Source of the DNA: an uncultured Pseudomonadota bacterium
GTDB taxonomy: Bacteria; Pseudomonadota; Gammaproteobacteria; Methylococcales; Methylomonadaceae
Direction: 5' to 3'
Assembly: GCA_903918375.1 (NCBI GenBank)
Contig: CAIXED010000008.1
Span: forward strand, 1-64,000
DNA: 64,000 nt
Shown: positions 1,317 through 24,883 of the stretch, piece after piece
How the letters are laid out: each line of letters begins with the position of its first letter
Position numbering within the stretch: the stretch's first letter is position 1
Made by a program: the position numbers and the translations under genes
The notes under the pieces: generated by a model
Told to the model about the DNA's origin: nothing
Databases searched by the model: none
The model's input: the letters and a program-made list of their open reading frames with translations, nothing else

Positions 1317-3038
1317 ATGATTGATGCTGAACGCATATTGAAAGAAACCTATCCCGATTTTAAGCTGGGTAAAGACAACAAATTAGTGGTTAAGGCTTTA
1401 AAAAAGCTGATTCACCAAGATGATTTTAACGAGGTGATTCGTAAAAACCAGCATTTGCGCGGCTTTGCGTTTCTTGACAAGTTGTTGAATTATTTCAAGT
1501 TTAGCTATCACATCGACAACGATGCTTATAACAATATCCCTGCCGAAGGTCGTTTAATTATCGTCGCTAATCACCCGATTGGTACCTTGGATGGTTTGGC
1601 TTTGGTTAAGCTAATTCGCTCGGTGCGGCCTGATGTGCGGATTGTCGCTAATCGGGTGTTGTCACATATGCAGCCTTTGGAATCGGTGTTTTTACCAGTC
1701 GATGTTTTGACCGATAAAAAGCAACTGAAAGCTACTTACAAAATCATGCTCGATGCTTTGGAAAATGAAGAAGCCATCATCATGTTCCCAGCCGGTGAAG
1801 TATCGCGGATTACTCCAAAAGGGGTGCGCGATGGGGATTGGCAAAGTGGCTTTTTGAAATTGGCGCACAAATCCCAAGCACCGATTTTGCCGATTCATAT
1901 TAAAGCTAAAAATTCGGCTTTGTTTTACAGCGCATCGACGCTCTATAAGCCATTAGGCACGATGCTGTTGGTCAAAGAAATGTTCAATAAAAAGAACCAG
2001 TCGATCAAGTTTCAGGTCGGCGCACCGATTCCTTATTCGGCAATTGCCAATAGCGACGAAAACAATAAACAACTGGCGAAACGCTTTAGAAAACACGTTT
2101 TAAATCTCGGCAAAAAACACAAAACCCCGTTGTTTGATACTTTTGCCACCGTGGTACATCCGGCTAATGCGAAAGCGGTGAAAAAAGCCCTGTTCCAATC
2201 GCGTTTACTCGGTGAAACCCGCGATGGCAAAAAGATTTTTCTCTATCAATTCCAAGATGATTGTCCGGTGATGCAGGAAATTGCTCGCTTGCGAGAATTG
2301 ACTTTCAGAACCGTCGAAGAAGGCACCGGTCTTGCCTTGGATTTGGATAAATTCGATGTTTACTACAGCCATATCGTACTGTGGGACGACAATGATTTGG
2401 AAATTGTCGGCGCGTATCGAGTTGGCGAAGGCCCAAAAATTCTCGCCAGCCACGGCATTGACGGTTTTTACACGCAAACCTTGTTCGATTTACAAGGCGA
2501 ATTGGCGGCCTATTTACCTAATAGTATCGAATTAGGCCGCAGCTTTGTGCAGCCGCGCTATTGGGGGCAACATAGTTTGGATTATCTTTGGTATGGCATC
2601 GGCGCTTATTTGCGTGAACAGCCAGAGATTAAATATTTGTTTGGCCCAGTCAGCTTGAGCAATGCTTATCCGCAATTAGCCAAAGAATTGATTATTGGTT
2701 TTTACCAACAGCAATCGGTGCCAGGCTTTCCGAATGCGGAAGCGCGAATGCCGTTTGAGATTTCTGAGCAATGCCAGCAGTTTGCGACACGCGAGTTTAC
2801 TCACGATTACGCCACCAGCTTTAAAACTCTAAACAGCGAATTAAAACGTCTAGGCGTGAAAGTGCCAACCCTTTACAAGCAATATAAAGAGTTATGCGTT
2901 GATGATGGCAGTCACTTTATCGCTTTCAACATCGACCCTGACTTTAATAACTGTATCGACAGCTTGGTGATGGTGGAAATCGACAAAATCGCCCCGAAAA
3001 AGCGTCAGCGTTATATCGAAAAATCGTTGACTAGCTAA
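1317..3038 (+). CDS. olsF: Bifunctional acyltransferase, OlsF-like (ornithine lipid synthesis)
   Basis: 573 residues with two domains. The N-terminal half is a PlsC-type acyltransferase: NHPIGTLDG at 85-93, with His86 and Asp92, and FPAGEVSR at 156-163. The C-terminal half (about 300-560) resembles the GNAT-like 'hemolysin'/OlsB N-acyltransferase domain. This order and length match OlsF, which acylates ornithine and then esterifies the product to give ornithine lipid without phosphate. A related hemolysin-like acyltransferase is the alternative. It heads a six-gene operon; the next gene starts 3 bp after its stop. ATG 1317 follows AGGAAACAAG, an acceptable ribosome site. Confidence 0.72.
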   Translation: MIDAERILKETYPDFKLGKDNKLVVKALKKLIHQDDFNEVIRKNQHLRGFAFLDKLLNYFKFSYHIDNDAYNNIPAEGRLIIVANHPIGTLDGLALVKLIRSVRPDVRIVANRVLSHMQPLESVFLPVDVLTDKKQLKATYKIMLDALENEEAIIMFPAGEVSRITPKGVRDGDWQSGFLKLAHKSQAPILPIHIKAKNSALFYSASTLYKPLGTMLLVKEMFNKKNQSIKFQVGAPIPYSAIANSDENNKQLAKRFRKHVLNLGKKHKTPLFDTFATVVHPANAKAVKKALFQSRLLGETRDGKKIFLYQFQDDCPVMQEIARLRELTFRTVEEGTGLALDLDKFDVYYSHIVLWDDNDLEIVGAYRVGEGPKILASHGIDGFYTQTLFDLQGELAAYLPNSIELGRSFVQPRYWGQHSLDYLWYGIGAYLREQPEIKYLFGPVSLSNAYPQLAKELIIGFYQQQSVPGFPNAEARMPFEISEQCQQFATREFTHDYATSFKTLNSELKRLGVKVPTLYKQYKELCVDDGSHFIAFNIDPDFNNCIDSLVMVEIDKIAPKKRQRYIEKSLTS

Positions 3039-3041
3039 ACC

Positions 3042-4055
3042 ATGAACAGTGTTTTAGTCGAACAGCAGCAACTTGATGCCATCATTCAACAGCTCGGTGA
3101 TCGGGCGCAAGTTGAGGTGCTGGAGACGATTAGCTATCGAGATCAGCAATTTCCGATTTACAGCATCGCCATCGGTTCACAGCGCGATGATGTGCCGGTG
3201 ATTGCTTATTTTGGTGGCGTGCATGGTTTGGAAAAAATCGGCACCGAAGTGTTATTGGCTTATCTGCAAACCTTGGCGAATTTGCTGGATTGGGATCAAG
3301 AGCTGAATCGGCGCTTGGAAAATGCACGCTTATTATTTGTGCCGATTATCAATCCGGTCGGGGTATTTTACGGCACCCGCTGTAATGGCAACGGTGTTGA
3401 TTTAATGCGTAACGCGCCGATTGAAGGCATCGGTAAAACCAAACTTTACAGCGGCCATCGCATCAGCCCACGTTTGCCGTGGTATCGCGGTGAACAGGCG
3501 GTGATGGAAGCCGAAGCTCAAGCCCTATGCCAAGTGGTGCGCCAGCAATTACAACGCTCGTCGTTATTGATTGCGATGGATTTACATTCGGGATTTGGGA
3601 TTCAAGATCGCTTGTGGTTTCCCTATGCCTCGCGCAAAACCCCGTTTCCCTCGTTAGCCGAAGCCCACGCCCTTAAAGCCTTGTTCGACCAATGCTACCC
3701 GCATCATTTTTATAAAATCGAACCGATGAGCCAAGAGTATGTGATTAGCGGTGATCTTTGGGATTATCTCTACGACGAATTTTGGCAGCAAAATCAACAA
3801 ACCGATCACTTTATGCCGCTCACGCTAGAGATGGGTTCTTGGCAATGGCTACGGAAAAACCCGATGCACTTGTTTTTACGTCACGGCTTGTTTCATCCAG
3901 TCTTGCCACACCGCCAACAACGGATTTTGCGCCGCCATTTAACCCTGTTTGATTTTCTATTTCGCGCCGCGCTGTATCCCGAAAAATGGACCGATTTAAA
4001 CCCGCAACAGCGTCAACAACAACATCAACTTGGCTTAGAAAACTGGTATGTCTAA
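3042..4055 (+). CDS. M14-family zinc carboxypeptidase-like protein (DUF2817 type)
   Basis: 337 residues. The M14 zinc site is visible: HGLE (His61, Glu64) and a third ligand His182 in MDLHSGFG. NPVG (104-107), Arg113 and VDLMRN (119-124) correspond to substrate-binding motifs, and the catalytic Glu is probably Glu263 in TLEMGSW. No signal peptide is apparent, so it is likely cytoplasmic. M14 enzymes remove C-terminal residues from peptides or hydrolyse acyl-amino bonds; the substrate is unknown. It lies 3 bp after the olsF-like gene and overlaps the next gene by 8 bp, so translational coupling is likely. Confidence 0.75.
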   Translation: MNSVLVEQQQLDAIIQQLGDRAQVEVLETISYRDQQFPIYSIAIGSQRDDVPVIAYFGGVHGLEKIGTEVLLAYLQTLANLLDWDQELNRRLENARLLFVPIINPVGVFYGTRCNGNGVDLMRNAPIEGIGKTKLYSGHRISPRLPWYRGEQAVMEAEAQALCQVVRQQLQRSSLLIAMDLHSGFGIQDRLWFPYASRKTPFPSLAEAHALKALFDQCYPHHFYKIEPMSQEYVISGDLWDYLYDEFWQQNQQTDHFMPLTLEMGSWQWLRKNPMHLFLRHGLFHPVLPHRQQRILRRHLTLFDFLFRAALYPEKWTDLNPQQRQQQHQLGLENWYV

Positions 4056-4851
4056 CTGCATATTGTTGCGTGGTTTATCGCGAGAATCGGGACATTGGGG
4101 CGATTTTGTACCGCAGATGCAGGCGGCATTGCCAATGGTTAAAATCGAAACCTTGGATTTACCGGGCACAGGTCAGTTTTATCAACAAACCAGCCCTAAT
4201 CGAATAGAAGCGATTTTAGAAGCAACCCGCCAGCAAGCTTTACAAGACGGCTTACTCAAGCAACCGATTCATTTACTCGCCGTTTCATTAGGTGGCATGG
4301 TGGCTTGGGAATGGTTGCAGCGTTACCCGCAAGAGATTCAATCAGCGATTTTAGTCAACACCAGCTTCGCCAACCTCAGCCCGTTTTACCAACGCTTACG
4401 CTGGCAAGCCTATAGTCAATTAGTTAGTGCTTTGACCAGCAATGATGCTTACCAACGTGAATTAGCGATTGTTCGCATGGTCAGCAATCGAGCCGATGGC
4501 GAACGCCAAACCATTGCTAAAGCATGGGCAAAATTACATCAACAACGCCCCATCAGTCTAAGCAATAGCCTTAATCAAATCACCGCTGCCGCCCGTTATA
4601 AACCGAGTTTGAACCGTCCTCAACTGCCGGTGTTATTACTCAATAGTTTGGGCGACCACTTAGTCTCAGCCAACTGTTCCTCCGCTATTCAACAGGGTTA
4701 TCAATTGCCATTACACAGCCATGCAAACGCTGGACATGATTTGGTGCTGGACGCGCCGGAATGGGTGATTGATCAAGCGCTCGCTTGGTTACAAAATCTG
4801 CCTCCGTCACACGCTTGTAACCTTGAGAAACTAAAGTCGCCGGACTTGTGA
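4048..4851 (+). CDS. Alpha/beta hydrolase
   Basis: 267 residues with an alpha/beta-hydrolase fold pattern. The nucleophile elbow is AVSLGG (Ser80), Asp203 lies in LGDHLV and His230 in AGHD, forming a plausible triad. LPGTG near residue 40 is a loop common in this family. The nucleophile motif has Ala where Gly is usual at its first position. The substrate is unknown; esterase or lipase-like activity on lipids would suit the operon, but that is inference. It overlaps the M14-type gene by 8 bp. Confidence 0.75.
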   Translation: MSNCILLRGLSRESGHWGDFVPQMQAALPMVKIETLDLPGTGQFYQQTSPNRIEAILEATRQQALQDGLLKQPIHLLAVSLGGMVAWEWLQRYPQEIQSAILVNTSFANLSPFYQRLRWQAYSQLVSALTSNDAYQRELAIVRMVSNRADGERQTIAKAWAKLHQQRPISLSNSLNQITAAARYKPSLNRPQLPVLLLNSLGDHLVSANCSSAIQQGYQLPLHSHANAGHDLVLDAPEWVIDQALAWLQNLPPSHACNLEKLKSPDL

Positions 4852-4867
4852 TTTTACGAGATTTAAC

Positions 4868-5587
4868 ATGATGACATCAGCAACCCCAATCACACCAACC
4901 CATATCTTGCATACTTTTGATGGCGAATTAGAGCAATTACACGAGCTAGTGCTAAAAATGACCAATTTGATTTTGTATCAATTGGAACTGGCTTTAACTG
5001 CCTTAGGCAATGAAGATTGTGAAACCGCATTGAAGATCATCGCTCAAGACAAACAGGTTAACCATCTGGCGATTGAGATTGATAAAGAAGTTTTAGAGCT
5101 ATTAGCAAGACACAATCCCGTCGCCAATGATTTACGCGCGGTGATTTCTATTGCCAAAATCAGCAGCGAGCTGGAAAAAATCAACGATGAAATTACTGAA
5201 ATTGCTCGCTTGGTTTTAGCTTTGTTTGAACCGCGCTTAGGCGTTATCAATACTGGCCTGCCTGTCGATCTGATTAACATCGGCAATCTGATTGAAAGCA
5301 TGTTGAAAAAATTAATCTTAGCGCTTTGGAACAGACAATCGACCCAAGCTTATGCTTTATTGGAACTGGGGCGCAGTTGTGAACAAGATTTACAAATCAG
5401 CAATAAACAACAATTGGCGTTAGCAGTTAGCGATGTACGAAAAGTAAGCCGAAGCTTGGATATTATGGAAATCCTCAAGGCTTTGGAGCATTGTGGCGAA
5501 TCTTGCCGCAATATCGCTGAATACATCATTTTTATGATTGATGGCGAAGATATAAGACACCTTAAACTCAACAATCGTGATAACTAA
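4868..5587 (+). CDS. PhoU-like protein
   Basis: 239 residues, almost entirely helical, with the PhoU repeat signature: DKQVNHLAIEIDKEVLELLA followed by NDLRAVISIAKISSELEKI. These are the acidic metal-binding E/DxxxD segments of PhoU helical bundles. PhoU proteins couple the Pst phosphate transporter to PhoR, but no pst genes are nearby, so this may be a divergent PhoU-domain regulator linked to polyphosphate or phosphate sensing. Gap to the hydrolase is 16 bp and to the phosphatase 6 bp. The C-terminal repeat is weaker than the first. Confidence 0.75.
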   Translation: MMTSATPITPTHILHTFDGELEQLHELVLKMTNLILYQLELALTALGNEDCETALKIIAQDKQVNHLAIEIDKEVLELLARHNPVANDLRAVISIAKISSELEKINDEITEIARLVLALFEPRLGVINTGLPVDLINIGNLIESMLKKLILALWNRQSTQAYALLELGRSCEQDLQISNKQQLALAVSDVRKVSRSLDIMEILKALEHCGESCRNIAEYIIFMIDGEDIRHLKLNNRDN

Positions 5588-5593
5588 TGAATC

Positions 5594-6268
5594 ATGCCTA
5601 GAGAATTATTACTGTTACGTCATGCAAAATCGGATTGGCCTGAAGGGGTTGCCGACTATAACCGCCCGTTAAAAAAACGTGGCAAAAAAGCAGCTTTATT
5701 GATGGGCGAATGGCTTTTGAGCCAAGATTTACGCCCTGATTCGATAATCAGTTCACCTGCCGAACGCGCTCGAGAAACCGCTGAAAAACTCTGCAAAGGC
5801 TTACACATTAAAAAACACGGGCTGCTGTATTTTGATGACCGGATTTACGAAGCCTCTGTCGAATCATTGAAAAGTGTTTTAGCAGACTGTCCATCATTTA
5901 AACAACGGTTATTAATCGTTGGTCATAACCCCGGCTTGGATAATTTATTAATCGATTTAGTGGCTGAAACCTTAATGCCTGATGACGATGACAAAATTTT
6001 AGGCACTGCCAATTTAGCCAGAATTAGTCTGCCCGATGACTGGAATCAATTAGATACCGGCTGTGGTCAACTGATTAGCATTACCAAACCTAAAGACATT
6101 TTGACGACTGTAGAACCCGTTATTGAAGCGATAACAGCAGAACAAGTTGAAGTTGAACAAACTAGCTTTGAACAACCAGAACAACAGCCAAAACTCAGCC
6201 GCTTACAACGATTAAGTAAGTGGCTAATTCGAGATAAAAACAGCCATAAACACAAGCTTAATCCATGA
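5594..6268 (+). CDS. SixA-like phosphohistidine phosphatase
   Basis: 224 residues. It begins with the histidine-phosphatase motif LLLRHAKSDW, with catalytic His10, Arg9 and Lys12 as in SixA. SSPAERARETAE (54-65) supplies the second Arg region and VGHNPGLD the second His (His111). SixA is about 160 residues; the extra C-terminal 50 residues are Glu/Gln-rich then basic, with no recognised domain. SixA dephosphorylates phosphohistidine in phosphotransfer proteins. Genes of this type are often found with CHAD proteins, as here, where its stop overlaps the CHAD start by 4 bp (ATGA). Confidence 0.8.
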   Translation: MPRELLLLRHAKSDWPEGVADYNRPLKKRGKKAALLMGEWLLSQDLRPDSIISSPAERARETAEKLCKGLHIKKHGLLYFDDRIYEASVESLKSVLADCPSFKQRLLIVGHNPGLDNLLIDLVAETLMPDDDDKILGTANLARISLPDDWNQLDTGCGQLISITKPKDILTTVEPVIEAITAEQVEVEQTSFEQPEQQPKLSRLQRLSKWLIRDKNSHKHKLNP

Positions 6269-7764
6269 AAATCATTGAACTTTATACCGCCGCCAAACCG
6301 GAAAAATTGGTTAAAAAACTAAACCAACAGATTCCAACCCAAATACTATCAACTGAATATATTATTAAATCTTATTACGATAGTTTTGACTGGCGTTTGT
6401 ATAAGCATCAATTAATCGCAGAACAGCTTAGGTCCAAACAACAATCGAGTTTTTTACTACGCAATCTTGATAGCGAAAAAATCATCGCTGAAACTGATTT
6501 AAAAGATATTCCAAAATTTTCACAGCAATTTGAAAATCAAGAAATCGCCAATATTTTAAATCCGATTCTCAAAATTCGCGCTTTAACTAAAATCTGTACG
6601 ATTGATTATGATAGTTATGTGATTGGTATTAACGATGAAAATGGCGAATTAATTGCTAAACTGACCTTTGAACAATATGAGTTATTCGGTAATCGTCTAT
6701 TATTAGAAGCCGCGCCTAATCAACAGAAAAAAATAGGCAAAATAATAAAAATTCTAAAAAAAGAATTTACCATTTCAACCAGTAAAGAATCGGTTTTTAG
6801 TAAAGCCTTAAAATCCCAAGGCCGAAAACCGAAAGATTACTCAGCGAAACTGGATTTACAACTAGCAAAAAATCAAAGAGCCGATCTTGCTTGTCAGAGT
6901 ATTTATAGCCAATTATTAAAAACCATCAAAAACAATGAGCACGGTGTCATTAACAACACCGACACTGAGTTTCTGCATGATTTTAGAACTGCAGCCCATA
7001 AAACTCAGACTGGCTTACGACAATTAGATAATGTTTTTCCTGAATCCGATCAAAATTACTTTTTGAAATTCTTTGATTGGTTAGCAGAAATTAGCAACGA
7101 AACTCGCGATTTAGACGTTCATTTATTAAGCTTCCAGCAGCAATACCAAGCTAACTCGGCTAAAGATAAAAAGGTCTTAGCTAGTTTTCACGATTTTTTA
7201 TCCACTAAACAGCAACAATCGCAGAAACAATTAGCTGACTTATTAAAATCTGCCGACTATTTAACTGGCTTACATGAATGGGAAAGGTTTTTAGATCGAA
7301 ATATTGACAAGGGCGAGCCGATTAAACACGCTAAAACCGCCATTAAGAAATTAGCCGATAAACGCCTAAAAAAGATTTATTTAAAATTTCTGGTGCAAGG
7401 TTTTGAATGCTTGAAAACAGAATCCGACTCATCTTTGCATGAGTTAAGAAAGTTAATCAGAAAACTTCGTTATCTTTGCGAGTTCTTTGCATCTTTATAT
7501 TCTGAAAATAAAATTAATAGTTTGTTAAGCGATTTGAAACATATCCAAGAGCTATTAGGCTTGGAACATGACCTTAGCATACAAATTTCGCATTGGACTG
7601 AGTTTCAGGAACAACATAAAAACAAGACTGATGCGCTAATCATTACATCGATGATAGATAATTTAAACTTCGAAAAACAAAAAATCGCTCAAGAATTTTC
7701 GGCATTATTTACCGAATTTTCCAGCATCAAAAACCAGAAAATGGTTGATAATTTATTTAACTAA
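6265..7764 (+). CDS. CHAD domain protein with a degenerate CYTH-like N-terminus
   Basis: 499 residues. The C-terminal half (about 205-490) is a CHAD domain: FLHDFRTAAHKTQTGLR (His238, Arg241, His245), then ETRDLDVHL and HELRKLIRKLRYLCEFF. CHAD domains bind inorganic polyphosphate through conserved His and basic residues. The first 180 residues contain YYDSFDWRL, which resembles CYTH, but the ExExK motif that opens catalytic CYTH enzymes is absent. It is therefore probably a binding protein, not a triphosphatase. Last gene of the operon; a terminator follows at 7841. Confidence 0.78.
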   Translation: MKIIELYTAAKPEKLVKKLNQQIPTQILSTEYIIKSYYDSFDWRLYKHQLIAEQLRSKQQSSFLLRNLDSEKIIAETDLKDIPKFSQQFENQEIANILNPILKIRALTKICTIDYDSYVIGINDENGELIAKLTFEQYELFGNRLLLEAAPNQQKKIGKIIKILKKEFTISTSKESVFSKALKSQGRKPKDYSAKLDLQLAKNQRADLACQSIYSQLLKTIKNNEHGVINNTDTEFLHDFRTAAHKTQTGLRQLDNVFPESDQNYFLKFFDWLAEISNETRDLDVHLLSFQQQYQANSAKDKKVLASFHDFLSTKQQQSQKQLADLLKSADYLTGLHEWERFLDRNIDKGEPIKHAKTAIKKLADKRLKKIYLKFLVQGFECLKTESDSSLHELRKLIRKLRYLCEFFASLYSENKINSLLSDLKHIQELLGLEHDLSIQISHWTEFQEQHKNKTDALIITSMIDNLNFEKQKIAQEFSALFTEFSSIKNQKMVDNLFN

Positions 7765-14454: not shown

Positions 14455-15863
14455 ACCAACAAACAAGCGGTAGCACTCAGCCAAAGGTTGCAGTGGTATT
14501 CGCTTTGCAGATATTGATTGCCAAAATACAAACCCAAGCCCAATAAAACATAAGCGCTAATTTTGGCTAACGGGTAGGGCACAGGGTAATAAAACCGCCC
14601 CAACGCCCACGAAGCGAGCACCATAAACCCATAGCACGCCAAGGTCGCCCAAGCCGAGCCTAGATAACCAAACTCAGGTATCCAGAGCAGATTTAAGCCC
14701 ACCGTCAGCGCAGCGCCAGCCAACGATACCCAAGCCCCCAGCCCAGTTCTGTCACTCAATTTGTACCAAACCGACAAGTTGACATAAATCCCCAAACACA
14801 AATTCGCCAACAACAAAATCGGTACCACCACCAATCCCTCTCGATATTCTTCACCGATGAAATATTTGAAGAAATCCAAGTACAAAGTCACCACTAAAAA
14901 GATCAACACCCCAGCCATGACAAAATATTGCATCACCAAAGCATAAGCGCGTTTGGCATCAGCACGTCCGGCGTAGGAAAAGAAAAACGGCTCACCGGCA
15001 TAGCGAAAAGCTTGCACGAACAAAGTCATTAAAATCGACAATTTGTAGCAAGCGCCATAGATACCGAGCATCTTTAAGTTGGTCGGCAAATCATAAGGCA
15101 GCATCACTTTCAAAATCGCCCGATCCAGCATTTCGTTAATCATCCCCGCAAAACCAATCACCACCATCGGTAACGAATAACGCAGCATCGGCGCCAAAAT
15201 CCGTGGATCGAGCTTGAATTGAATCGCTTTAAACTGCGGCAACAACAGCAATAACTTCACAAAACTGGCAATCAAATTAGCCCAGAAAATATAAGCCACG
15301 CCTTGTTTTGGATCGTAATAAGCCGCTAAATCCGGCCAAATCGCTAATAACTTCGGACAAGCCAGTAACAAAAACAGATTGAGAGCGATGGTGATAAAAA
15401 TCTCCGCCATCTTGATACCAGCAAATCGCCAAGCTTTATTTTCGGCACGCAAGCGAGCAAACGGCAACGCAGTCACCGCATCCAGCGCCAAAATTGCTGC
15501 AAAACACAGTAAATAATCAGGATGTTGAGGATAGCGTAACCAAGCTGATAAAGGCTGTTGGTAAATAGCGATTACAGCGAAAAATAGCAGGCTACTGGTG
15601 AATAGAAAGCTCAAGCTGCTGCGATAAACGCTGTCATGTTGATAATCTGGATTTTGCCGAAAACGGAAATAACCGGTTTCCAAACCAAACGCCAACAACA
15701 CCGCAAAAAAACCTGCATAGGCGTAAAACTCCGACACCACACCGTATTCGCCAGCAGCAAAGGTGTAAGTGTAAAGCGGTACTAATAGGTAATTGAGAAA
15801 ACGACCAACGATGCTGCTAAGGCCGTAGATGGCGGTTTGGGAGATGAGTTGTCGTAGAGACAC
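14397..15863 (-). CDS. Polysaccharide flippase (Wzx/MOP-type)
   Basis: 488 residues with about twelve to fourteen hydrophobic segments. The N-terminus QTAIYGLSSIVGRFLNYLLV and PLYTYTFAAGEYGVVSEF matches polysaccharide biosynthesis flippases of the MOP superfamily. These move lipid-linked sugars across the inner membrane. No glycosyltransferase cluster is adjacent, so the exported glycan is unknown. Its 3' end overlaps the DUF1289 gene on the other strand. The upstream side borders a long AT-rich region. Confidence 0.85.
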   Translation of the reverse strand: MSLRQLISQTAIYGLSSIVGRFLNYLLVPLYTYTFAAGEYGVVSEFYAYAGFFAVLLAFGLETGYFRFRQNPDYQHDSVYRSSLSFLFTSSLLFFAVIAIYQQPLSAWLRYPQHPDYLLCFAAILALDAVTALPFARLRAENKAWRFAGIKMAEIFITIALNLFLLLACPKLLAIWPDLAAYYDPKQGVAYIFWANLIASFVKLLLLLPQFKAIQFKLDPRILAPMLRYSLPMVVIGFAGMINEMLDRAILKVMLPYDLPTNLKMLGIYGACYKLSILMTLFVQAFRYAGEPFFFSYAGRADAKRAYALVMQYFVMAGVLIFLVVTLYLDFFKYFIGEEYREGLVVVPILLLANLCLGIYVNLSVWYKLSDRTGLGAWVSLAGAALTVGLNLLWIPEFGYLGSAWATLACYGFMVLASWALGRFYYPVPYPLAKISAYVLLGLGLYFGNQYLQSEYHCNLWLSATACLLVYLLVVLFEARLLLRRRAA

Positions 15864-16730
15864 TGAATTATTCCTTCTGATTCGTCAGGCGACAATCGGT
15901 TACGTCAACATAGGAGAGCGATGCTAGAATTTTGAAGGATTTGGCTTATTTTTATAGAAAAGTCTTGTGCAAAATGAATAAATCACTTCCAAGCTTAAAC
16001 CTTTAAAACTTATCGAAAAAATCGAACTTACGAATATAAAAACTAGACTCAGGCACTAACTTTGTCTTCAACTATATGCTAAACAAACCTTTACCTGTTA
16101 ACTCTGTACATGACCGAATGCACTGGATCTGATTACCATGAGATGATCTTGTTTTAAACGGATTGTAACAGAATAACTAATAAGAACAGCAAAACTCCAA
16201 ACTCTAAAAGCATTTGCATTACCCATCTCGACAAGGGCATTTTATAAGCTGTAGAGCAACAATTTATTGCACCTATCTAAACAAAATCGGTTGCAACTGC
16301 CTGTTTTACAGGCCATCTACAAACACAAAAACAATCATATGTCACTGTTTTTTAACAATTTTTTACATATTACCCCTTTATTTAATCCTCATTTTGAAGT
16401 AGACTAAAAAATCAATGTATCAAATCGTTTTAAACATTATTCCTTGATTTCGTTAACACGTTATGAACCTATTGATCTCTAAAAATACTTCTTTGAAAAA
16501 GCATTCATGGCAATCCCGAATTACCTAATGCTGCTTCCAAAGAAACACAGAATTACTACGACAAAAATACCGACAGAAATTCAGGTTTCACCAGCGACCC
16601 AACCTAATATCATCAAGCCCTAAATCTTTCCGGATAATTTTAGGTAAGAAGGTCTAAGTTGCTTAACAAATGATTTATGCAACAAACCATAAATTTTAAA
16701 ATTTTATAAAAAACACCTAGGGAGCCATAA
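15864..16730. other. AT-rich non-coding stretch
   Basis: About 870 bp with no supported gene. A 62-codon frame at 16214-16402 has no ribosome site or recognisable sequence and is not called. The composition shifts to AT-rich here and stays so to about 18.2 kb, marking the left side of an accessory island. No tRNA, integrase or direct repeat marking an attachment site was seen. Confidence 0.5.
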
Positions 16731-17150
16731 ATGATGCAAGAAAAATTCATTGATAAACTACAAAAAATAATTTCAACTTGTAATTCAGAGGGCATGTACA
16801 GGGGTAACTATATCCCTGAAAATAAACTATCTAACGCAATAAAACACTTCTCTTTTGATACAACAGACACTCCTCTTGCGCTAATAGACACTACTGTTTT
16901 CGGTTCAGCAAAATTAGGCATGATCATCGGACATAAGGGAATATATTTTAAGAATGACTGGAATGTAGAATCGGTTCGTAATTTTTTATCATGGCAAGAA
17001 ATAGCCGAATCTGACTTCAAAATTAGAAAGAAAACGTTTGAAATTGAAATACTACCTAATTGCAACTTCGGCATGTCTGCTGCTAACATGAAGAGAGATG
17101 CTCTTATTGATCTATTAACAGAAATTACAGAATCTTATAACAACATGTAA
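16731..17150 (+). CDS. Unrecognised protein with a PH-like pattern; N-terminal part of a split gene
   Basis: 139 residues, ATG after AGGGAGCC, a good ribosome site. The core LALIDTTVFGSAKLGMIIG followed by HKGIYFKNDW and LSWQEIAESDF has the strand-turn-strand pattern of small PH-like domains that open with 'DxTxFGsak.G...T.kGiy.kn'. I do not know its function. Translation ends at TAA 17148-17150, but the same frame then stays open for 346 more codons with no ATG near the restart. This may be the N-terminal module of a larger protein. AT-rich codon use fits transferred DNA. Confidence 0.6.
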   Translation: MMQEKFIDKLQKIISTCNSEGMYRGNYIPENKLSNAIKHFSFDTTDTPLALIDTTVFGSAKLGMIIGHKGIYFKNDWNVESVRNFLSWQEIAESDFKIRKKTFEIEILPNCNFGMSAANMKRDALIDLLTEITESYNNM

Positions 17151-18191
17151 GATACTAAAGAAATCAAACAGGAATACCGACCTTTCAATACAACCCAACC
17201 GAATCTGTCACTCAATTCTCAGAAATTAATTGAGAATGAATCAAAAAATACACCCCCAATATCAAAGGACAAAATACTAGGCGTTATATCTACTATCATT
17301 GAACAGCATGAACCTAAAATAATCCAATTTATTGGTGACGTCTCTAGCTCTACTCTCCGCAACGATGAAAACATTGAAAAGTTAGCATTATTTTTGTACG
17401 CATTTCTCCCAAATGTAGTGCGCCTAGTTATAAAAGAACATGTTTTTGTTAATTTTATAAAGGAAAATAGAAGCAAAATTCTTGAAACGATTGAACATAA
17501 ATCATTAAAATCAAATAACAATCAAGAATCCCTAATGTATATAAAAGGATCATTTCAGTTATCTGATGCAAAAGAATTATCAAAAACCGTTCATAAACAA
17601 ACTATGAACTTACTAAAACAAGAAGTTGAAGTTTTCATTAAAAATGATGAATCATATTGGATTTTTCTTGGATTGCTTGAAAGCCACATCGATTTAATTC
17701 TAAATGACAATATTTTGAACGCCATCGGTGACTCGGAAAATTATATCAACTTAATAGATGAAAAAGAAAACAACAATTACATTAACTACCTATTAATAAC
17801 AAAAACAATCCTTACAGCCACATATTGTTACAGCATCACTAAACTACCAAATGACTTTAGAGATGAAGTAGATCTAGATACAATTATTAACATGACGAAT
17901 GTTATTTTTCCATATATAGAAAACTTTAAAAACTCTCTTAAAGTTAATTTCAAAAATTACGACGAAAATCATGAAGAAAATGATTTCACAAACAAAATAA
18001 TAGCAATATTTTCTGAAGCAGATGAATCAGACAGACATGACGCACAATTAGCCATACTTAGAAGAAAATCAATAGAAAAAATTTTTAAAGATATTGGGTT
18101 AACACATCAGACCACAAGAACCATACTTATTACCTCTGACATAATTATAGACAATTGGTATAAGCACGCAGTAAAACTAATGGAAGGATAA
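17151..18191 (+). pseudogene. In-frame C-terminal continuation of the 16731 gene, after a TAA codon
   Basis: Reading on from 17151 in the frame of the upstream gene gives 346 sense codons before the next stop, starting DTKEIKQEYRPFN. No ATG occurs before about codon 130, and TTG at 17394 falls inside a well-formed helical segment (LALFLYAFLPNVVRLVIKEH). The region thus lacks a credible start of its own. It is mostly helical and acidic, of no recognised family. The likely explanations are one gene broken by a nonsense mutation, or stop-codon readthrough. A sequencing error is also possible. Confidence 0.6.
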
Positions 18192-18227
18192 TCCTTTAAA
18201 TATTAAAATAGACTTTTGGTTGACAAA

Positions 18228-18437
18228 ATGGCATTCCCCCCTAATTTCAACACCCAATCAACCTGTAATGCTTGCGGTAAACGAGTGCTTATCAAGCACA
18301 CAAAAGATGCGATCTTTCGGCCAAATCAATGCGGATATTGTGATAGCACAGACTTAACTCATGTTGAAGTTATAAAATTGAAATACATGCTTTCACATCC
18401 AGTGACTTATCTCCGCATGCTGTTAGCCAAAAAATAA
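18228..18437 (+). CDS. Small zinc-ribbon protein
   Basis: 69 residues from ATG 18228 (a TTG at 18216 would add four). Two Cys pairs, CNAC and CGYC, about 20 residues apart form a plausible zinc ribbon, followed by a basic, hydrophobic tail ending RMLLAKK. No family is recognised. It lies 36 bp after the split gene in the same direction and shares its AT-rich character, so it may belong to the same unit. Nucleic-acid or protein binding is only a guess. Confidence 0.55.
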   Translation: MAFPPNFNTQSTCNACGKRVLIKHTKDAIFRPNQCGYCDSTDLTHVEVIKLKYMLSHPVTYLRMLLAKK

Positions 18438-18500
18438 GCGTTCATCGCTTTCGCTTTGTCATTTATCGTGTGATGGCTTTTAACGTAATTAGGAGGGAAT

Positions 18501-18728
18501 ATGACTGTATCACTCAGGCTACCTGACGACATTCAGAATCGCTTACAACGTCTGGCACAGCTGACTGGACGTAGCAAATCATCTTATATGATTGAGGCGA
18601 TTCGCGAACATCTTGATGACCTTGAAGATTTATATCTTGCTGAACAGCGTTTAGTCGATATTCGTAGCGGAAAAACCCAAACCATTCCAATGGAAGATGT
18701 GATGAAACGCTATGGCTTGGAAAATTGA
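18501..18728 (+). CDS. RelB-type ribbon-helix-helix antitoxin
   Basis: 75 residues. MTVSLRLPDDIQNRLQRLAQ followed by TGRSKSSYMIEAIREHL is a ribbon-helix-helix DNA-binding domain, with a C-terminal tail (RSGKTQTIPMEDVMKRYGLE) of the kind that neutralises RelE-type toxins. Start ATG follows AGGAGGG, a strong ribosome site. It overlaps the truncated toxin start by 17 bp. It appears intact and could still bind DNA or neutralise related toxins. Confidence 0.85.
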   Translation: MTVSLRLPDDIQNRLQRLAQLTGRSKSSYMIEAIREHLDDLEDLYLAEQRLVDIRSGKTQTIPMEDVMKRYGLEN

Positions 18729-18798
18729 GTTTGATCCTGCAGCGGAACGAGAGCTAGATAAATTAGACCCTGATGTTACGCAAGGTCGTCAGCATTGA
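18712..18798 (+). pseudogene. RelE-type toxin, truncated after 28 codons
   Basis: ATG 18712 overlaps the antitoxin end. The 28 residues begin MAWKIEFDPAAERELDKLDP, the canonical start of RelE/StbE toxins, then run into DVTQGRQH and stop at 18796-18798. Normal toxins of this family are about 85-95 residues. The core strands and catalytic C-terminus are absent, and no remnant is seen before the next gene pair. The toxin is therefore dead by a 3' deletion, with the junction near 18780. Confidence 0.8.
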
Positions 18799-18887
18799 GC
18801 GCAATTTTTAGTCCTGTCCTTCACGCCAATAAGAAGCTGCCTGTGATTTCTAATACAATACCAGCAGACAAAAGTGAGAGGTGTTTT

Positions 18888-19070
18888 ATGGCTATCAAAA
18901 GTAGTACTTTTGGGCGTGTTGAATTAAACGGTACCGATGCCGAAAGGTTTTTGCAGATTATGAGCGAGAGAAAAAGTAATCCTCGTGCAGTAGCTGCATT
19001 AAAACGTGGCCGCGAAATTTTAAAACGCGTTACTGAGGGTAAATCAATTCAATTTAAACAAGATGTCTGA
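18888..19070 (+). CDS. Putative antitoxin paired with a GNAT toxin
   Basis: 60 residues from ATG 18888, which follows GAGAGGTG. A longer frame from 18795 lacks a good start. The sequence FGRVELNGTDAERFLQIMSE, then RAVAALKRGREILKRV, is short and basic. I recognise no named family, but its size, its 8-bp overlap with an acetyltransferase gene and its position match GNAT toxin-antitoxin pairs. The antitoxin assignment rests on context. Confidence 0.55.
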   Translation: MAIKSSTFGRVELNGTDAERFLQIMSERKSNPRAVAALKRGREILKRVTEGKSIQFKQDV

Positions 19071-19589
19071 AGCTGGTTTTCATATTCGAAAACTAGAGCA
19101 AGGTGATAACGTCCAAAACTTCAAGCTCGGTAACGAAGCTTTTTTGCCGCTAAAAACGTTTTTGCAAAAGCAAGCCAAAACATTTCAAGAGTCTAATATT
19201 GCTCAAACCTACGTGGCAGTTACTGCACAGGATGCAATAGCGGGATTTATAACGCTGACATGCAGCGAGATAGATCTTCAGAACCATTATGCTATTTCAG
19301 ATTGCAGTCATGCGAATAATTACGAGTATTTGCCCGCAGTCAAAATTGCACGTTTGGCAGTTGATAGCCGCTATAGAGAAAACGGAATTGGAACAGGTTT
19401 ACTTGATTTGCTATTGCTTTGATCATTGATAGAGTGGCTGACAGTGTTGGCTGTAGGTTTGTTGTAACCGATGCCAAAATTGAGGCAGTAGAGTTTTACG
19501 CTAAACAGGGATTCACAGTCCTCAACAGTTATCAGTCAGGTGCTTCCGATTACCATCTCATGTTTTTGGATCTCGATATTCTGGGCTAA
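19063..19589 (+). pseudogene. GNAT acetyltransferase toxin, frameshifted
   Basis: The first frame (19063-19422) encodes a GNAT start, IRKLEQGDNVQNF, strand KIARLAVDSRYRENGIGTGL with the acetyl-CoA RxxGxG motif, and stops at TGA 19420-19422. From 19416 the next frame continues the fold: ALIIDRVADSVGCRFVVTDA, AVEFYAKQGF and a stop at 19587-19589. A net one-base deletion near 19414-19416 explains both halves. Rejoined, the protein would be about 175 residues, normal for tRNA-acetylating TacT-like toxins. Loss of the C-terminal third should inactivate it. Confidence 0.8.
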
Positions 19590-19714
19590 GGAGCGAGAAT
19601 AACTAACGCCATCCACAACAGCAATGCCAAAAAACAAAAAGCAACGATGCCGATAAACACACCTTTTATTGCTCCGGTTAACATTGCTCGTAAGACTTCA
19701 TCGTCATTGAACAT
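19586..19714 (-). CDS. Small single-span membrane protein
   Basis: 42 residues read on the minus strand: MFNDDEVLRAMLTGAIKGVF, then a hydrophobic helix (IGIVAFCFLALLLWMALVIL) and AP. It lies 25 bp after the trmB stop in the same direction, and its stop overlaps the end of the GNAT pseudogene. The ribosome site is weak. The acidic N-terminus and single helix are coherent for a small inner-membrane protein; the function is unknown. Confidence 0.45.
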   Translation of the reverse strand: MFNDDEVLRAMLTGAIKGVFIGIVAFCFLALLLWMALVILAP

Positions 19715-19739
19715 AATTTGTTTTGTCTTTAGCTGACGG

Positions 19740-20429
19740 CTAGGCTTTACGAAAAATCAAATCCCAAACCCCATGCCCTAAATTCAGGCCGCGATTTTCA
19801 AATTTGGTTAAAGGTCGATATTCAGGGCGAGGGCAATAATCGCCGCTTGGACTACTGTTCTGTAACAACTTGGCTTCGGTCAAAATACCGAGCATATCTT
19901 TAGCGTAATGCGCCCAATCAGTAGCGGCGTGGAAATAACCATTGTTGGCTAATTTTTTATGCAGCAATTCGACAAAGCTAGGGCGAACAATTCGCCGTTT
20001 GTGATGGCGACGTTTTTGCCAAGGGTCGGGGAAGAATAGATGCACGCCCGCTAAGCTGTTGTCGGGAATTTTTTGTTCCAGAATTTCGATAGCGTCGTGG
20101 TGATAAATCCGCACGTTATTGATATTGCGTTGTTCCAACAGCATCATTAAATGCCCAACACCGGGGCGGTGAACTTCGATACCGATGTAATTCAAATCAG
20201 GGTTAGCTTCGGCCATATCCGCCAAACTGCTGCCATTACCAAAGCCGATTTCTAAAATCAGTGGGGCTTGGCGACCGAATACTTGGGCAAAATCATAATT
20301 TTGTTCGGGCGATAAACAAAATTTCTCGCTGTGGTTTTGCAGCGCCAGCTCTTGACCTGCAGTGGCTCGGCCTTGGCGACGAATAAAGCTTTTAATTTTG
20401 CTGGGGTCAATTTTTAACGAGTCGGTCAT
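19740..20429 (-). CDS. trmB: tRNA (guanine-N7)-methyltransferase
   Basis: 229 residues. The SAM-binding motif LILEIGFGNGSSLADMA and the TrmB signature VHLFFPDPWQKRRHHKRR are clear. It methylates G46 of tRNAs. The length is close to the E. coli enzyme (239). It is transcribed toward a small membrane-protein gene; a REP-like palindrome precedes it. Confidence 0.95.
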   Translation of the reverse strand: MTDSLKIDPSKIKSFIRRQGRATAGQELALQNHSEKFCLSPEQNYDFAQVFGRQAPLILEIGFGNGSSLADMAEANPDLNYIGIEVHRPGVGHLMMLLEQRNINNVRIYHHDAIEILEQKIPDNSLAGVHLFFPDPWQKRRHHKRRIVRPSFVELLHKKLANNGYFHAATDWAHYAKDMLGILTEAKLLQNSSPSGDYCPRPEYRPLTKFENRGLNLGHGVWDLIFRKA

Positions 20430-20498
20430 GATGGGCGCAGTCGGTGCGAATCGACACCGAGACAGTAAGAAGATTAAAAATAAGTCACTTTCAATAAG

Positions 20499-20575
20499 CC
20501 TCCCCCTTTGAAAAAGGGGGATTGAGGGGGATTTATTTGAATAATCTCCCCTAGCCCCTCTTTTTCAAAGAGGGG
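20499..20575. repeat. REP-like imperfect palindrome
   Basis: Two related arms, 20499-20533 (CCTCCCCCTTTGAAAAAGGG...) and 20543-20575 (...CTCTTTTTCAAAGAGGGG), are inverted relative to each other. Each arm also folds alone through CCCTTTG/CAAAGGG-type pairs. It lies between thiSG and trmB, which point the same way. This G/C-run repeat style is common between genes in several gammaproteobacteria. Confidence 0.65.
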
Positions 20576-20592
20576 AACAGGCTACTGAATAA

Positions 20593-21570
20593 TTACAGAA
20601 ATAAACCATCAATCGGCGAAGAAGCCGAGGCAAAACGCTTGCGTGGCATACGACCAGCTAGGAAAGCTTCGCGACCCGCTTCAATGCCTTTTTTCATTGC
20701 TGAAGCCATTAATACCGGATTTTGCGCGGCGGCAATTGCGGTGTTCATCAGCACGCCATCACAACCTAATTCCATCGCCATCGCTGCATCTGAAGCGGTA
20801 CCAACACCGGCATCAACCAAAATCGGCACCTTGGCGTTTTCGACGATGGTTAAAATGTTGTATGGGTTACGAATCCCTAAGCCAGAACCAATCGGTGCCG
20901 CTAATGGCATCACCGCCACACAGCCGATTTCTTCCAAACGCTTGGCAGCAATAGGGTCGTCGTTGGTGTAAACCATGACGTCAAAACCGTCTTTAACCAA
21001 CATTTCTGCGGCGATATACGTTTGAGCAACGTCTGGGAATAAGGTTAATTGATCAGCTAAGACTTCCAGCTTGACCAATTTATGACCGCCTAATAATTCA
21101 CGCGCTAAACGGCAAGTTCTGACCGCATCTTCGGCGGTGTAACAGCCTGCGGTGTTAGGCAAAATCGTGTATTTATCGGGTGAAATCACATCCAGCAAGC
21201 TTGGCTCATTGGGATTTTGGCCGATATTGGTACGGCGAATCGCTACCGTGATGATTTCTGCACCGCTGGCTTCAGTCGCCAAACGGGTTTGTTCCAAGTC
21301 TTTGTATTTACCGCTGCCGACCAATAAGCGTGAACGGTATTGTTTGCCAGCCAAGGTGAAATAATCGTCTTGGCCACCGCCAATCGCTTGCACAATTTCC
21401 AAACGATCACCGTCTTTAATACTTTGTGAGGCATGTTCGGTGAACGGCAAAATTTCCATGTTTAATTCCACCGCAATCCGCTTACCGGTTAAACCCAAAT
21501 CAGCAATCACATCAGCTACTGTGCAGTTGTCACCATATTCGCGGCTATCGCCATTAACCTGTACTTTCAT
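20593..21570 (-). CDS. thiG: ThiS-ThiG fusion: sulfur carrier and thiazole synthase
   Basis: 325 residues. Residues 1-66 are ThiS, ending IVQAIGGG (Gly64-66). Residues 70-325 are ThiG, with VGSGKY, the Schiff-base Lys167 in [25 protein letters not shown] and [11 protein letters not shown]. ThiG builds the thiazole of thiamine from deoxyxylulose phosphate, dehydroglycine and the ThiS thiocarboxylate. A free ThiS C-terminal glycine is normally needed, yet here it continues into ThiG as GGGQDD. Such fusions occur in other bacteria. It starts 2 bp after aroG stops; SD AAGGG lies in the aroG end. Confidence 0.92.
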
Positions 21571-21572
21571 GC

Positions 21573-22652
21573 TTAACCCTTCGCTTTAATTGCTGCGCGG
21601 CGTTGCTGAACGGCAGACGCCAAATGATTCAGTAAATCGACGCTGTCATCCCAACCCAAGCAAGGGTCGGTGATACTTTGTCCGTAAACCAAGCTGCCGC
21701 CGTTTTCACCATCTTGACGACCTTCGACCAAATGACTTTCCGCCATAATGCCGATGATGCGGCTGTCGCCATTAGCGATTTGACCACCAACATCTTGACC
21801 GACTAACAATTGGCGTTCGTATTTTTTCATGCAGTTCGCGTGGCTGAAATCAATCATGATATTCGGACGCAAACCGGCTTTTTCCAAACCTGTGGCAACT
21901 TGCTCAACGCTGACTTCGTCGTAATTCGGTCTGTCGTTGCCGCCTCTTAAAATGATGTGGGCATCTTCGTTACCGCGAGTCGAGAAAATCGCCGAGCGAC
22001 CTTCTTTAGTCAATGATAAAAAGTGGTGCGGACTCATCGCGGCATTAATCGCGTCGATAGCAATTTTGAAACCGCCATCAGTGGCGTTTTTGAAACCGAC
22101 TGGGCAAGATAAACCAGAGGCTAATTCTCTGTGAACTTGGCTTTCAGTGGTTCTAGCACCAATCGCGCCCCATGAAATCAAGTCCGACATGTATTGCGGG
22201 GTAATCAAATCCAAGTATTCTGTCGCGGCAGGTACACCAAGATTGTTAACGTCTGACAGCACTTTACGAGCAAGACGCAAACCTTTGTTGATGTTGAAGC
22301 TGGCGTTTAAGTCTGGATCGTTAATCAAGCCTTTCCAGCCAACCGTGGTGCGCGGTTTTTCAAAATAAACCCGCATCACAATCACTAAATCGTCTTGCAA
22401 TTGATCCATCAGCACTTTTAAGCGACCGGCATATTCAACCGCCGCTTCGGGGTCGTGGATTGAGCAAGGGCCAATCACCACTAACAAGCGATCATCGTCA
22501 CCAGTCAAAATGTTATGAATCGCCGCCCGCGCTTTTAAAATGGTTTTGGCAGCCACTTCGGTCATGGGAATTTCTTCATGAACCTGAATCGGCGGCACCA
22601 CATCCTTGGTTTCGCAAATTCTTAAATCATCGGTGTTGTAATTAGTTTGCAT
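21573..22652 (-). CDS. aroG: 3-deoxy-7-phosphoheptulonate synthase (AroG/AroF type)
   Basis: 359 residues from ATG 22652; a TTG at 22679 would extend it, but [12 protein letters not shown] aligns with the E. coli-type N-terminus. [48 protein letters not shown] and [11 protein letters not shown] are type I DAHP synthase motifs. It condenses phosphoenolpyruvate with erythrose 4-phosphate, the first step to aromatic amino acids. Which amino acid feeds back cannot be assigned with certainty. It is followed 2 bp later by thiSG. Confidence 0.92.
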
Positions 22653-22824
22653 GACACTGAGTGTTGGTAGACGAATCAAATCGGCTATTTTAACCGTTTT
22701 GAGGGGGAGGGGATACAGGCAATGGTTTTGGCGAATATCCTAAGCACCGAAACCATCGACAATTTTCGGCTTAAACGATGATTTACAGGGATAATAAGGA
22801 TTTTAATCCACCGATGATTAACGC

Positions 22825-23553
22825 TTGAACCGACCAACCACCAGCCGCCGCTATCGCCAACTTAGCCGCAACAGCAATCAGCCTTTAGCCTTAAAAATCA
22901 AACGCGGCTTGGCTTATGCGCTGTTAGTGTTCATCGGCAGTTCGTTACTATTAGTTGCTTTGCTGCGCTTTATGCCAGCGCCCACTTCGGCTTTCATGCT
23001 GAATCAACATTTTGAAGACCTATTTGCCGGCCAAGGCTATCGCACGATTAATCAAGACTGGGTCAGTTACGAAAAAATCTCCAAACACGCCTCGCAAGCG
23101 GTGATTGCCTCCGAAGACCAGCTGTTTTATCAACACAACGGCTTCGACATCAACGCCATCCAAAAAGCCTATCAACGCTATGAAAACGGTGGCAGCTTGC
23201 GTGGCGCCAGCACGATCAGCCAGCAAGTCGCGAAAAATCTGTTTTTAGTACCGGCCAAAAATCTGCTTCGTAAAGCCTTGGAAATTTGGTTTACCGTGTT
23301 ACTAGAAATGCTGTGGAGCAAGGAACGGATTTTGGAAATGTATTTAAACATCGCAGAATTTGGCGACCATCTATTTGGCATCGAAGCCGCCAGTCGCCAT
23401 TATTTCGGCATCCCCGCCAAACAGCTTTCAGCCGAACAAAGCGCCTTACTCGCCGCGACTTTACCGAATCCAATTCGCTTTAAAGCCAACCAACCCAGCG
23501 AATATGTTTACAAACGCCAAGCTTGGATTTTGCGGCAAATGCGCAATTTCTAA
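22825..23553 (+). CDS. mtgA: Monofunctional peptidoglycan glycosyltransferase
   Basis: 242 residues: a basic N-terminus, one membrane helix (about 29-50), then a GT51 domain. Catalytic Glu97 is in ASEDQLFYQHNGFD, GASTISQQVAKNLFL is the second motif and EMYLNIAEFG the third. It polymerises lipid II into glycan strands without a transpeptidase domain. The frame begins at TTG 22825; no in-frame ATG exists upstream of the membrane helix, so the TTG start is likely. Confidence 0.93.
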   Translation: MNRPTTSRRYRQLSRNSNQPLALKIKRGLAYALLVFIGSSLLLVALLRFMPAPTSAFMLNQHFEDLFAGQGYRTINQDWVSYEKISKHASQAVIASEDQLFYQHNGFDINAIQKAYQRYENGGSLRGASTISQQVAKNLFLVPAKNLLRKALEIWFTVLLEMLWSKERILEMYLNIAEFGDHLFGIEAASRHYFGIPAKQLSAEQSALLAATLPNPIRFKANQPSEYVYKRQAWILRQMRNF

Positions 23554-23607
23554 GCCTTGGCGAACGGTTACAATACTTATTTTTTTAGCCTTTAATCTGG
23601 ATTCTGC

Positions 23608-24477
23608 ATGAAATTGCTTACTTTTCTTCATCAAGGCCAATCGAAAATTGGCGCAGTGGTTGATAACAACATCGTGGTTGCGACTGGCAATATCGACCAT
23701 GCTGACACTATGATCGCCTTCCTCACCAGCGGCGCCAACGGTTTAAACGCCTTGCAGAACTTGATTGATAGCGGTAATCACCGTATCAACCTAGCCGATG
23801 TGACGCTGCAAGCGCCGATTCCACGCCCCGGCAAATTGCTAGGCATTGGCCTTAACTACGCTGATCACATTGGCGAAACTGGCCTTGAAAAACCGGAATA
23901 CCCGACTTTTTTCACCAAACAAAGCACTTGCGTCATTGCCGATGGCGAAGCGATTCACTGTCCAAAAGTCTCGGATAAAGTCGATTATGAAGGTGAGTTA
24001 GCGTTTGTAATTGGCAAACGCTGCCGCAATGTTCCGCTTGAACAAGCCCATGAAGTGATTGCTGGTTACACAATTTGTAACGATGTCACGGTGCGCGACT
24101 GGCAATTCCGTACCCCCACGTGGACTATCGGCAAATCCTTCGACACCCACGGCCCAATTGGTCCTTGGATAGTCACTAAAGACGAAATCGCCGACCCGCA
24201 CAATCTCAGCCTAAAAACTTGGGTTGATGAAGAATTACGCCAAAACGCCAACACCGGCGAAATGATTTTTAACTGTTACGAACAAATTGCCTATCTCAGC
24301 CAAGCGATGACTTTGGAGCCGGGCGACGTAATTAGCACCGGCACCCCAAGCGGCGTTGGGGTAAAAATGAAACCGCGCGGCTATTTAAAACCGGGGCAAG
24401 TGGTACGAATTGAAATTGAAGGTATTGGTCAATTACAAAATCCGGTGATTAACGAACCAGATAATTTTATCGGTTAA
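23608..24477 (+). CDS. Fumarylacetoacetate hydrolase family protein
   Basis: 289 residues. LLGIGLNYADHIGETG, the metal-site Glu in DYEGELAFVIG, ICNDVTVRDWQ and VISTGTPSGVG are FAH-family motifs. Members hydrolyse or decarboxylate 2-keto acids such as acylpyruvates. The substrate is not determinable, and no aromatic catabolic genes surround it. It starts 54 bp after mtgA. Confidence 0.88.
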   Translation: MKLLTFLHQGQSKIGAVVDNNIVVATGNIDHADTMIAFLTSGANGLNALQNLIDSGNHRINLADVTLQAPIPRPGKLLGIGLNYADHIGETGLEKPEYPTFFTKQSTCVIADGEAIHCPKVSDKVDYEGELAFVIGKRCRNVPLEQAHEVIAGYTICNDVTVRDWQFRTPTWTIGKSFDTHGPIGPWIVTKDEIADPHNLSLKTWVDEELRQNANTGEMIFNCYEQIAYLSQAMTLEPGDVISTGTPSGVGVKMKPRGYLKPGQVVRIEIEGIGQLQNPVINEPDNFIG

Positions 24478-24490
24478 GATTCAATTAAGC

Positions 24491-24548
24491 CTGCCTCTTG
24501 TAAGCTAAGCCCAACTTTAATAAAAGAGGGCAAATCGCCAAGAGGCAG
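24491..24548 (+). promoter_or_regulatory. RNA stem that would bury a ribosome site
   Basis: CTGCCTCTTG (24491-24500) is the exact reverse complement of CAAGAGGCAG (24539-24548). The second arm contains AGAGG (24541-24545), the ribosome site of the lipoprotein gene at 24551. A partial competitor arm, AAAAGAGGGC (24522-24531), lies between them. The folded 5' leader could hold translation off, for example as a thermometer or switch. The role is inferred from pairing only. Confidence 0.45.
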
Positions 24549-24550
24549 TT

Positions 24551-24883
24551 ATGAAAACTTTGAAAATCACCGCGTTAGTTATTGCTACATTAACTTTGTC
24601 AGGTTGTGCAACCCACCCATACAACGGTGGCTACGCAGCTTACAGCGCCAGCTATTCAAACACACCGGTTTCATATCCTGCCGCTCGATACAACTATTCA
24701 CAGCCTTACTACGCAGCACCGGTTTATCCCGTCGCGCCACGTTATGCGCCTGCGCCAGTGTTGCAGTTTAATTACGGTGGTGGACATGAAAGACATTTTG
24801 AACACGGTCATCACGACTACAGACCAGAACACCATTTCTCACACGGTCATCATGGTCGTCGTCATGAGCGGGATTATCATTAA
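24551..24883 (+). CDS. Small His/Tyr-rich lipoprotein
   Basis: 110 residues with a lipoprotein signal ending LSGC (Cys19). The middle is Tyr/Pro/Ala-rich (NYSQPYYAAPVYPVAPRY) and the tail is His-rich with Arg and Glu (HERHFEHGHHDYRPEHHFSH). Low complexity prevents a family assignment. The histidine cluster could bind divalent metal, which is inference. It is preceded by a stem that contains its ribosome site. Confidence 0.65.
   Translation: MKTLKITALVIATLTLSGCATHPYNGGYAAYSASYSNTPVSYPAARYNYSQPYYAAPVYPVAPRYAPAPVLQFNYGGGHERHFEHGHHDYRPEHHFSHGHHGRRHERDYH

Follow-up and report, generated by a model that had tools for sequence, protein, structure and literature searches.

The closest described counterpart of the gene reported here is BnzA of the anti-phage system Bunzi (PADLOC PDLC03833), which carries a PH-like domain at its N-terminus. 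TerB (PF05099) is listed for both Shango and Bunzi (PMC10952713). In the window, by which we mean the entire stretch of 64,000 nucleotides that was analyzed, an interrupted gene shares this N-terminal domain with BnzA. However, the likeness is limited to that domain: the PADLOC match (E=1.4e-10) aligns residues 10-106 of the first half of the gene with profile positions 8-111 of 544 only, the second half is of a different kind and gives no BnzA match at E up to 1, neither half matches TerB or anything else in Pfam up to E 0.1, and no BnzB was found in the genome by profile search. The same BnzB profile does retrieve BnzB in a congener (G010), where it forms a full pair with a BnzA of 572 aa. 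The genome under study contains a shorter BnzA relative of 416 aa, located at the end of a contig (C67; locus L004, 127-1377; E=3.1e-167), and, as judged from these sequences, its Bunzi looks broken or incomplete. The BnzA of the congener also weakly matched bPH_3 (E=0.015, under the cut-off). A TerD gene is found elsewhere in the genome under study (contig C29; L071 3898-4494), where, as assessed by eye, it stands among conjugation-like genes.

Two further groups of proteins can be compared with the window gene. In a protein of Undibacterium (L023, 394 aa) and in a set of Acinetobacter proteins (about 357 aa), the same domain is likewise N-terminal and is followed in one frame by a helical or J-type part. 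Their C-terminal parts are TerB and/or J, whereas that of the window gene consists of a conserved helical domain, which we name domain X, and an orphan tail. Conversely, small proteins in two genomes (G268 and G271) and their homologues in plasmid and phage records share domain X, of about 90 residues, with the window gene, but are free-standing and have neither the PH-like domain nor the long tail. We consider it probable that the window gene once encoded a single protein of about 486 residues, comprising the PH-like domain, a linker, domain X and the tail, and that a recent nonsense mutation split it in what was a dispensable gene.

An open frame interrupted by a single TAA

The frame begins on the forward strand with ATG 16731, which is preceded by GGAG, runs for 139 codons (the N-half, 16731..17147) and ends at TAA 17148-17150, after which the same frame stays open for 346 codons (the C-half) up to a second TAA at 18189-18191. 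This arrangement, on which the earlier note was founded, can be read directly in the sequence. Its statement that no ATG occurs in the first 240 bases after the stop is true and even understated, as the earliest in-frame ATG downstream lies at 17535 and the earliest ATG, GTG or TTG is a TTG at 17394..17396 of the forward strand. An ATG at 17145, ahead of the stop, runs straight into the TAA. The notion that the C-half is open by chance was rejected, given that the probability of 346 open codons is about 2e-13 from single-base composition alone and that the remaining two forward frames of this stretch contain 33 and 44 stops. When 61 ORFs with a minimum length of 100 aa were compared, this stop had the longest open run in frame behind it (median 11); the runner-up (338) is a separate gene, 3042-4055, that starts at an ATG of its own, and in third place comes a run of 97. 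A reassigned TAA was likewise rejected because the same frame itself terminates at TAA 18189. Scans for promoters and terminators gave matches no commoner than in shuffled sequences, and a search of 15600-19800 against Rfam gave a single match far under threshold, which we took as chance.

The PH-like domain and its relatives

The AlphaFold2 model of the N-half, based on 16 aligned sequences, is a compact domain with a mean pLDDT of 95.6, in which an N-terminal helix is followed by strands and by a final helix (residues 122-137) that ends two residues short of the stop. Against structure libraries, FERM and PH domains came near the top in the PDB, all with E of 1.5 or more, and Foldseek returned nothing at E of 0.001 or better. 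The N-half matched nothing in Pfam or NCBIfam (both E up to 1) or in PHROGs (E up to 0.01), and neither half matched a solved structure by sequence. The earlier description of this region as a PH-like N-terminus is plausible, given a confident strands-then-helix model with PH and FERM domains near the top, but the library matches are not significant, and 'PH-like' serves as a fair label more than as an identification.

One degenerate motif, run over 84,980 species genomes, yielded 28 candidate loci for this N-domain, 20 of which were confirmed, and two out of 50 were confirmed in viral contigs. The 22 loci include eight from Acinetobacter, which are hence not independent, and two that repeat G161 and G143. 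At 18 of the 22 loci the frame runs on for an estimated 43-234 residues beyond the N-domain; three others have it at the end of a longer protein (845, 608 and 344 aa), and just one encodes it by itself (L040, 153 aa). Judged by these architectures, it is a module nearly always tied to another part. Among the carriers from the host's own family are an uncultured Methylococcaceae genome and Crenothrix polyspora, which points to a host within the methane-oxidizing gammaproteobacteria. In the Undibacterium protein the PH-like domain is joined to TerB and DnaJ, both above the Pfam cut-off, and the Acinetobacter proteins have a J-like end, with DnaJ just under the cut-off in all four genome proteins scanned and also in an Acinetobacter phage record (L020). 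The N-domain is followed by SHOCT in Acidovorax (L027) and by a helix-hairpin-helix in another gene of Crenothrix, the second there, while a kinase is found ahead of it in a member of the Planctomycetota (L026). When the N-half was used in tblastn searches, two Acinetobacter phage records matched and no plasmid did; viral contigs queried with its sequence gave no match.

Two other arrangements were encountered among these loci. In one viral contig (L043 4602-5837) a J domain (PF00226, E=2e-15) precedes the PH-like domain, which reverses the order seen in Acinetobacter and Undibacterium. In another genome (G104; L018 1466-3262) a 599-aa protein has two tandem PH-like domains, identified by profile matches, and a further C-terminal part.

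Domain X and the helical tail

Behind the stop, and on the same strand, the frame encodes a polar linker devoid of ATG, GTG and TTG (17151..17264), domain X (17265..17534) and a remainder that is predicted, with low confidence, to be helical (17535..18188). Residues 48-134 of the C-half matched a protein of 122 residues encoded in G268 and G271 (pairwise E = 7e-7), whose gene lies between genes for TerD and TerB, neighbors that were confirmed in both genomes; the two loci are near-identical and were counted as one. A profile of four proteins (from G268, one phage record and two plasmids), from which the window was excluded, scores the C-half at 37.8 bits, whereas the highest score among 1000 shuffles was 8.0. 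The coordinates of X given above come from a five-row profile in which the window is one of the rows; this profile has matches in four of 311 genomes of the order and five of 369 of the class, the genome under study being counted in both. Two of its matches were not trusted, one in G048 (E=7.7e-4) that has a TGA inside and one in G533 that lies in a 41-codon frame with a TAA within the match. In one genome of the class (L052), X lies behind another N-terminal stretch in a stop-to-stop frame of 231 codons. X has no Pfam name; methanotrophs, plasmids and a phage record encode it on its own as a small protein (L010 1396-1761, L012, L045, L046, L047, L052 and L054), and at L010 a TerB match was also found.

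The earlier note had held that homologues beginning near 17394 as separate proteins would speak against a split gene. Separate X proteins do exist, but the match to them starts upstream, near 17265. Given that X spans about 17265-17534, TTG 17394 lies inside it, and a start there would delete its first part.

For the residues that follow X (17535-18188) no homologue was found. The C-half as a whole gave no match in plasmids or phages (tblastn), and viral contigs queried with the C-half, the phage X protein and the X alignment gave none either. A structure predicted for the C-half from its single sequence was unusable (mean pLDDT 37.9). Several weak matches of the C-half were set aside: an NCBIfam match as chance (E=0.082, with 11.7 bits where the cut-off is 577), its sole Pfam match at E up to 1 likewise (E=0.3), those in G278 and G280 on the grounds that they fall inside an unrelated conserved protein, which we take to be HrcA, and those in G196 and at a second locus of G271 (L015), again taken as chance.

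A variable segment and the origin of the stop

The split gene, with a GC content of 30.5%, lies on a strain-specific segment of 2,965 bp (15876..18840) with 33.6% GC, as against 43.7% for the window. In the closely related genome G009 the segment is missing and about 41 bp are found instead: by blastn, positions 1-1131 of the G009 contig (L067) correspond to window 14745-15875 (92.8%) and positions 1173-7208 to window 18841-24883 (93.7%). At the same point G033 has a different insert of 882 bp, which replaces 15876-19739 and carries a Gp49-type and a helix-turn-helix gene, presumably the make-up of a toxin-antitoxin pair. That the segment is missing in one relative and replaced in another places the split gene on an exchangeable segment. 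The site, beside a flippase-like gene (window 15876; L066 852-1733; L067 1132-1172), has the appearance of an insertion hot spot, with three contents in three related genomes. A transposon with terminal repeats was rejected as the means of insertion, there being no repeat pair of at least 14 bases at the segment ends.

Other pieces in this neighborhood, all on the forward strand, include two that look decayed, a RelE-like stretch and an acetyltransferase gene. The segment also bears a small zinc-ribbon-like gene (18228..18437; PF07282, E=0.0047, under the Pfam cut-off), a ribbon-helix-helix gene (18501..18728; DUF6290, TraY and RHH_1 above the cut-off) and a 28-codon stretch (18712..18798), which had no match in Pfam and the translation of which, examined by eye, resembles the start of a RelE-type protein. 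The ribbon-helix-helix gene resembles an antitoxin gene and stands directly before this possible RelE-like remnant; it is perhaps an orphaned antitoxin. Outside the segment, a GNAT acetyltransferase gene (19063..19589) is broken into two frames (119 + 56 aa), as compared to one frame of 175 aa in G009 (L067 1395-1922); it belongs to a probable toxin-antitoxin pair.

The view that the two open stretches were halves of one protein, which is probably correct, rests on the domain content, the missing start and this context. The earlier note had left the choice between a split protein and readthrough of the TAA. The former is favored by the domains, by the missing start, by the variable segment with its broken neighbors and by the 18 of 22 loci at which the frame runs on past the N-domain, with the qualification that those frames carry C-terminal parts other than X; readthrough found little support. 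The comparison with homologues that had been proposed to decide between them gave no homologue of full length, either with a sense codon at the site or with a conserved TAA. No protein joining the PH-like domain to X was present in the collections searched, so that a sense codon at 17148-17150 was never seen; these collections comprised 101 and 311 genomes for the C-half, 237 genomes for the N-half and 370 for the N-half as a profile, 311 and 369 genomes for the X profile, phage and plasmid records, viral contigs, and the 84,980 species genomes by the one N-domain motif only.

The C-half contains no additional stop or frame break, and for this reason a nonsense mutation would be recent. By our estimate, for which indel rates and weights were assumed, a C-half free of constraint since the cut would have an even chance of acquiring a lesion by 0.6-0.9% divergence and a 95% chance by 2.5-3.9%. 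Set against this estimate, the intact C-half suggests that the cut is young, or that the C-half is still constrained, or that the stop is a reading error.

An error of sequencing or assembly, or a mixed-strain consensus, with one intact gene in the living organism, ranks second behind a nonsense mutation as an account of the TAA, and we regard it as unlikely. It would explain the absence of further stops in the C-half, and it is in keeping with the state of the genome, which is a 2.79-Mb draft in 82 contigs, and with the presence of a second lesion, the frame change in the acetyltransferase gene, only about 2.3 kb away. However, that frame change and the stop are different kinds of lesion, and a one-base reading error would not account for the shortened RelE-like stretch of the segment, should that be real.

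Still less probable are two functional genes, the first encoding the PH-like domain alone and the second being initiated within the linker at a non-standard codon, or translated by coupling over the TAA. The complete fold of the N-half, the stop at its very end and the PH-only relative are compatible with a functional short form, X does occur as a separate small protein elsewhere, and rarer start-like codons are available upstream of X (ATC 17163, CTG 17205, ATT 17229 and ATA 17259). Against this, no in-frame ATG, GTG or TTG precedes X, the first of these codons to appear would cut into X, the ATG at 17145 leads only into the TAA, and the four separate X proteins that were read (122-173 aa) do not have the long tail of the C-half.

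Readthrough of the TAA at a useful rate, giving the PH-like domain alone as a short product together with a little of a PH-X form, is very improbable, in spite of the intact downstream frame and the completeness of the N-half fold. The TAA is followed by a G, a context in which termination is less accurate in E. coli (PMC11126739), and in-frame stops that are conserved and under purifying selection have been reported from bacteria (PMC7918605). On the other hand, TAA is the least read-through stop in E. coli reporters, where in both rich and minimal medium the means were 0.01-0.05% of the wild-type level (PMC11126739). The 133 bases behind the stop showed no RNA structure (z = 0.06, with 101 of 200 shuffles folding at least as well), the searches turned up no homologue carrying this stop, and an X-like frame was present at none of the 22 N-domain loci within up to 5 kb on each side, a weak comparison, as no homologue of both halves was found. 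The most doubtful of all is that the stop is a kept switch, in which a short PH-like regulator is accompanied under stress by low readthrough into an acting longer PH-X form, as part of a dose-sensitive defense or stress family; were it true, it would add a rare bacterial example of an in-frame TAA with a function.

Under the preferred account, the two stretches would be the halves of a protein of about 486 residues in which a BnzA-kind PH-like domain and a polar linker preceded domain X and the tail, both helical, and the frame of which was ended in the linker by a single nonsense mutation. The cell would now make at most the folded 139-residue PH-like domain, and the C-half would be untranslated or nearly so. 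The location of the gene on an exchangeable segment beside broken or orphaned pieces of toxin-antitoxin type suggests that its loss is tolerated. By analogy with BnzA, with the TerB and J partners of the N-domain and with the TerD-X-TerB neighborhood, the intact protein was probably a cytoplasmic adaptor in the response to stress or phage, in which the PH-like domain may sense or tether while the C-terminal helical part may act or recruit partners of the Ter or chaperone type.

A broken gene as such is ordinary. The modest value of this one lies in the presence of a BnzA-type N-domain in one frame with X, which Pfam does not name and which elsewhere sits between TerD and TerB genes. In other proteins the N-domain is partnered by TerB, J, SHOCT, helix-hairpin-helix and kinase domains. 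The split gene also marks an exchangeable site in this genus. The combination of the N-domain and X in a single frame, given the position of X between TerD and TerB genes elsewhere, strengthens a link between the Bunzi N-domain and stress modules of the Ter type.
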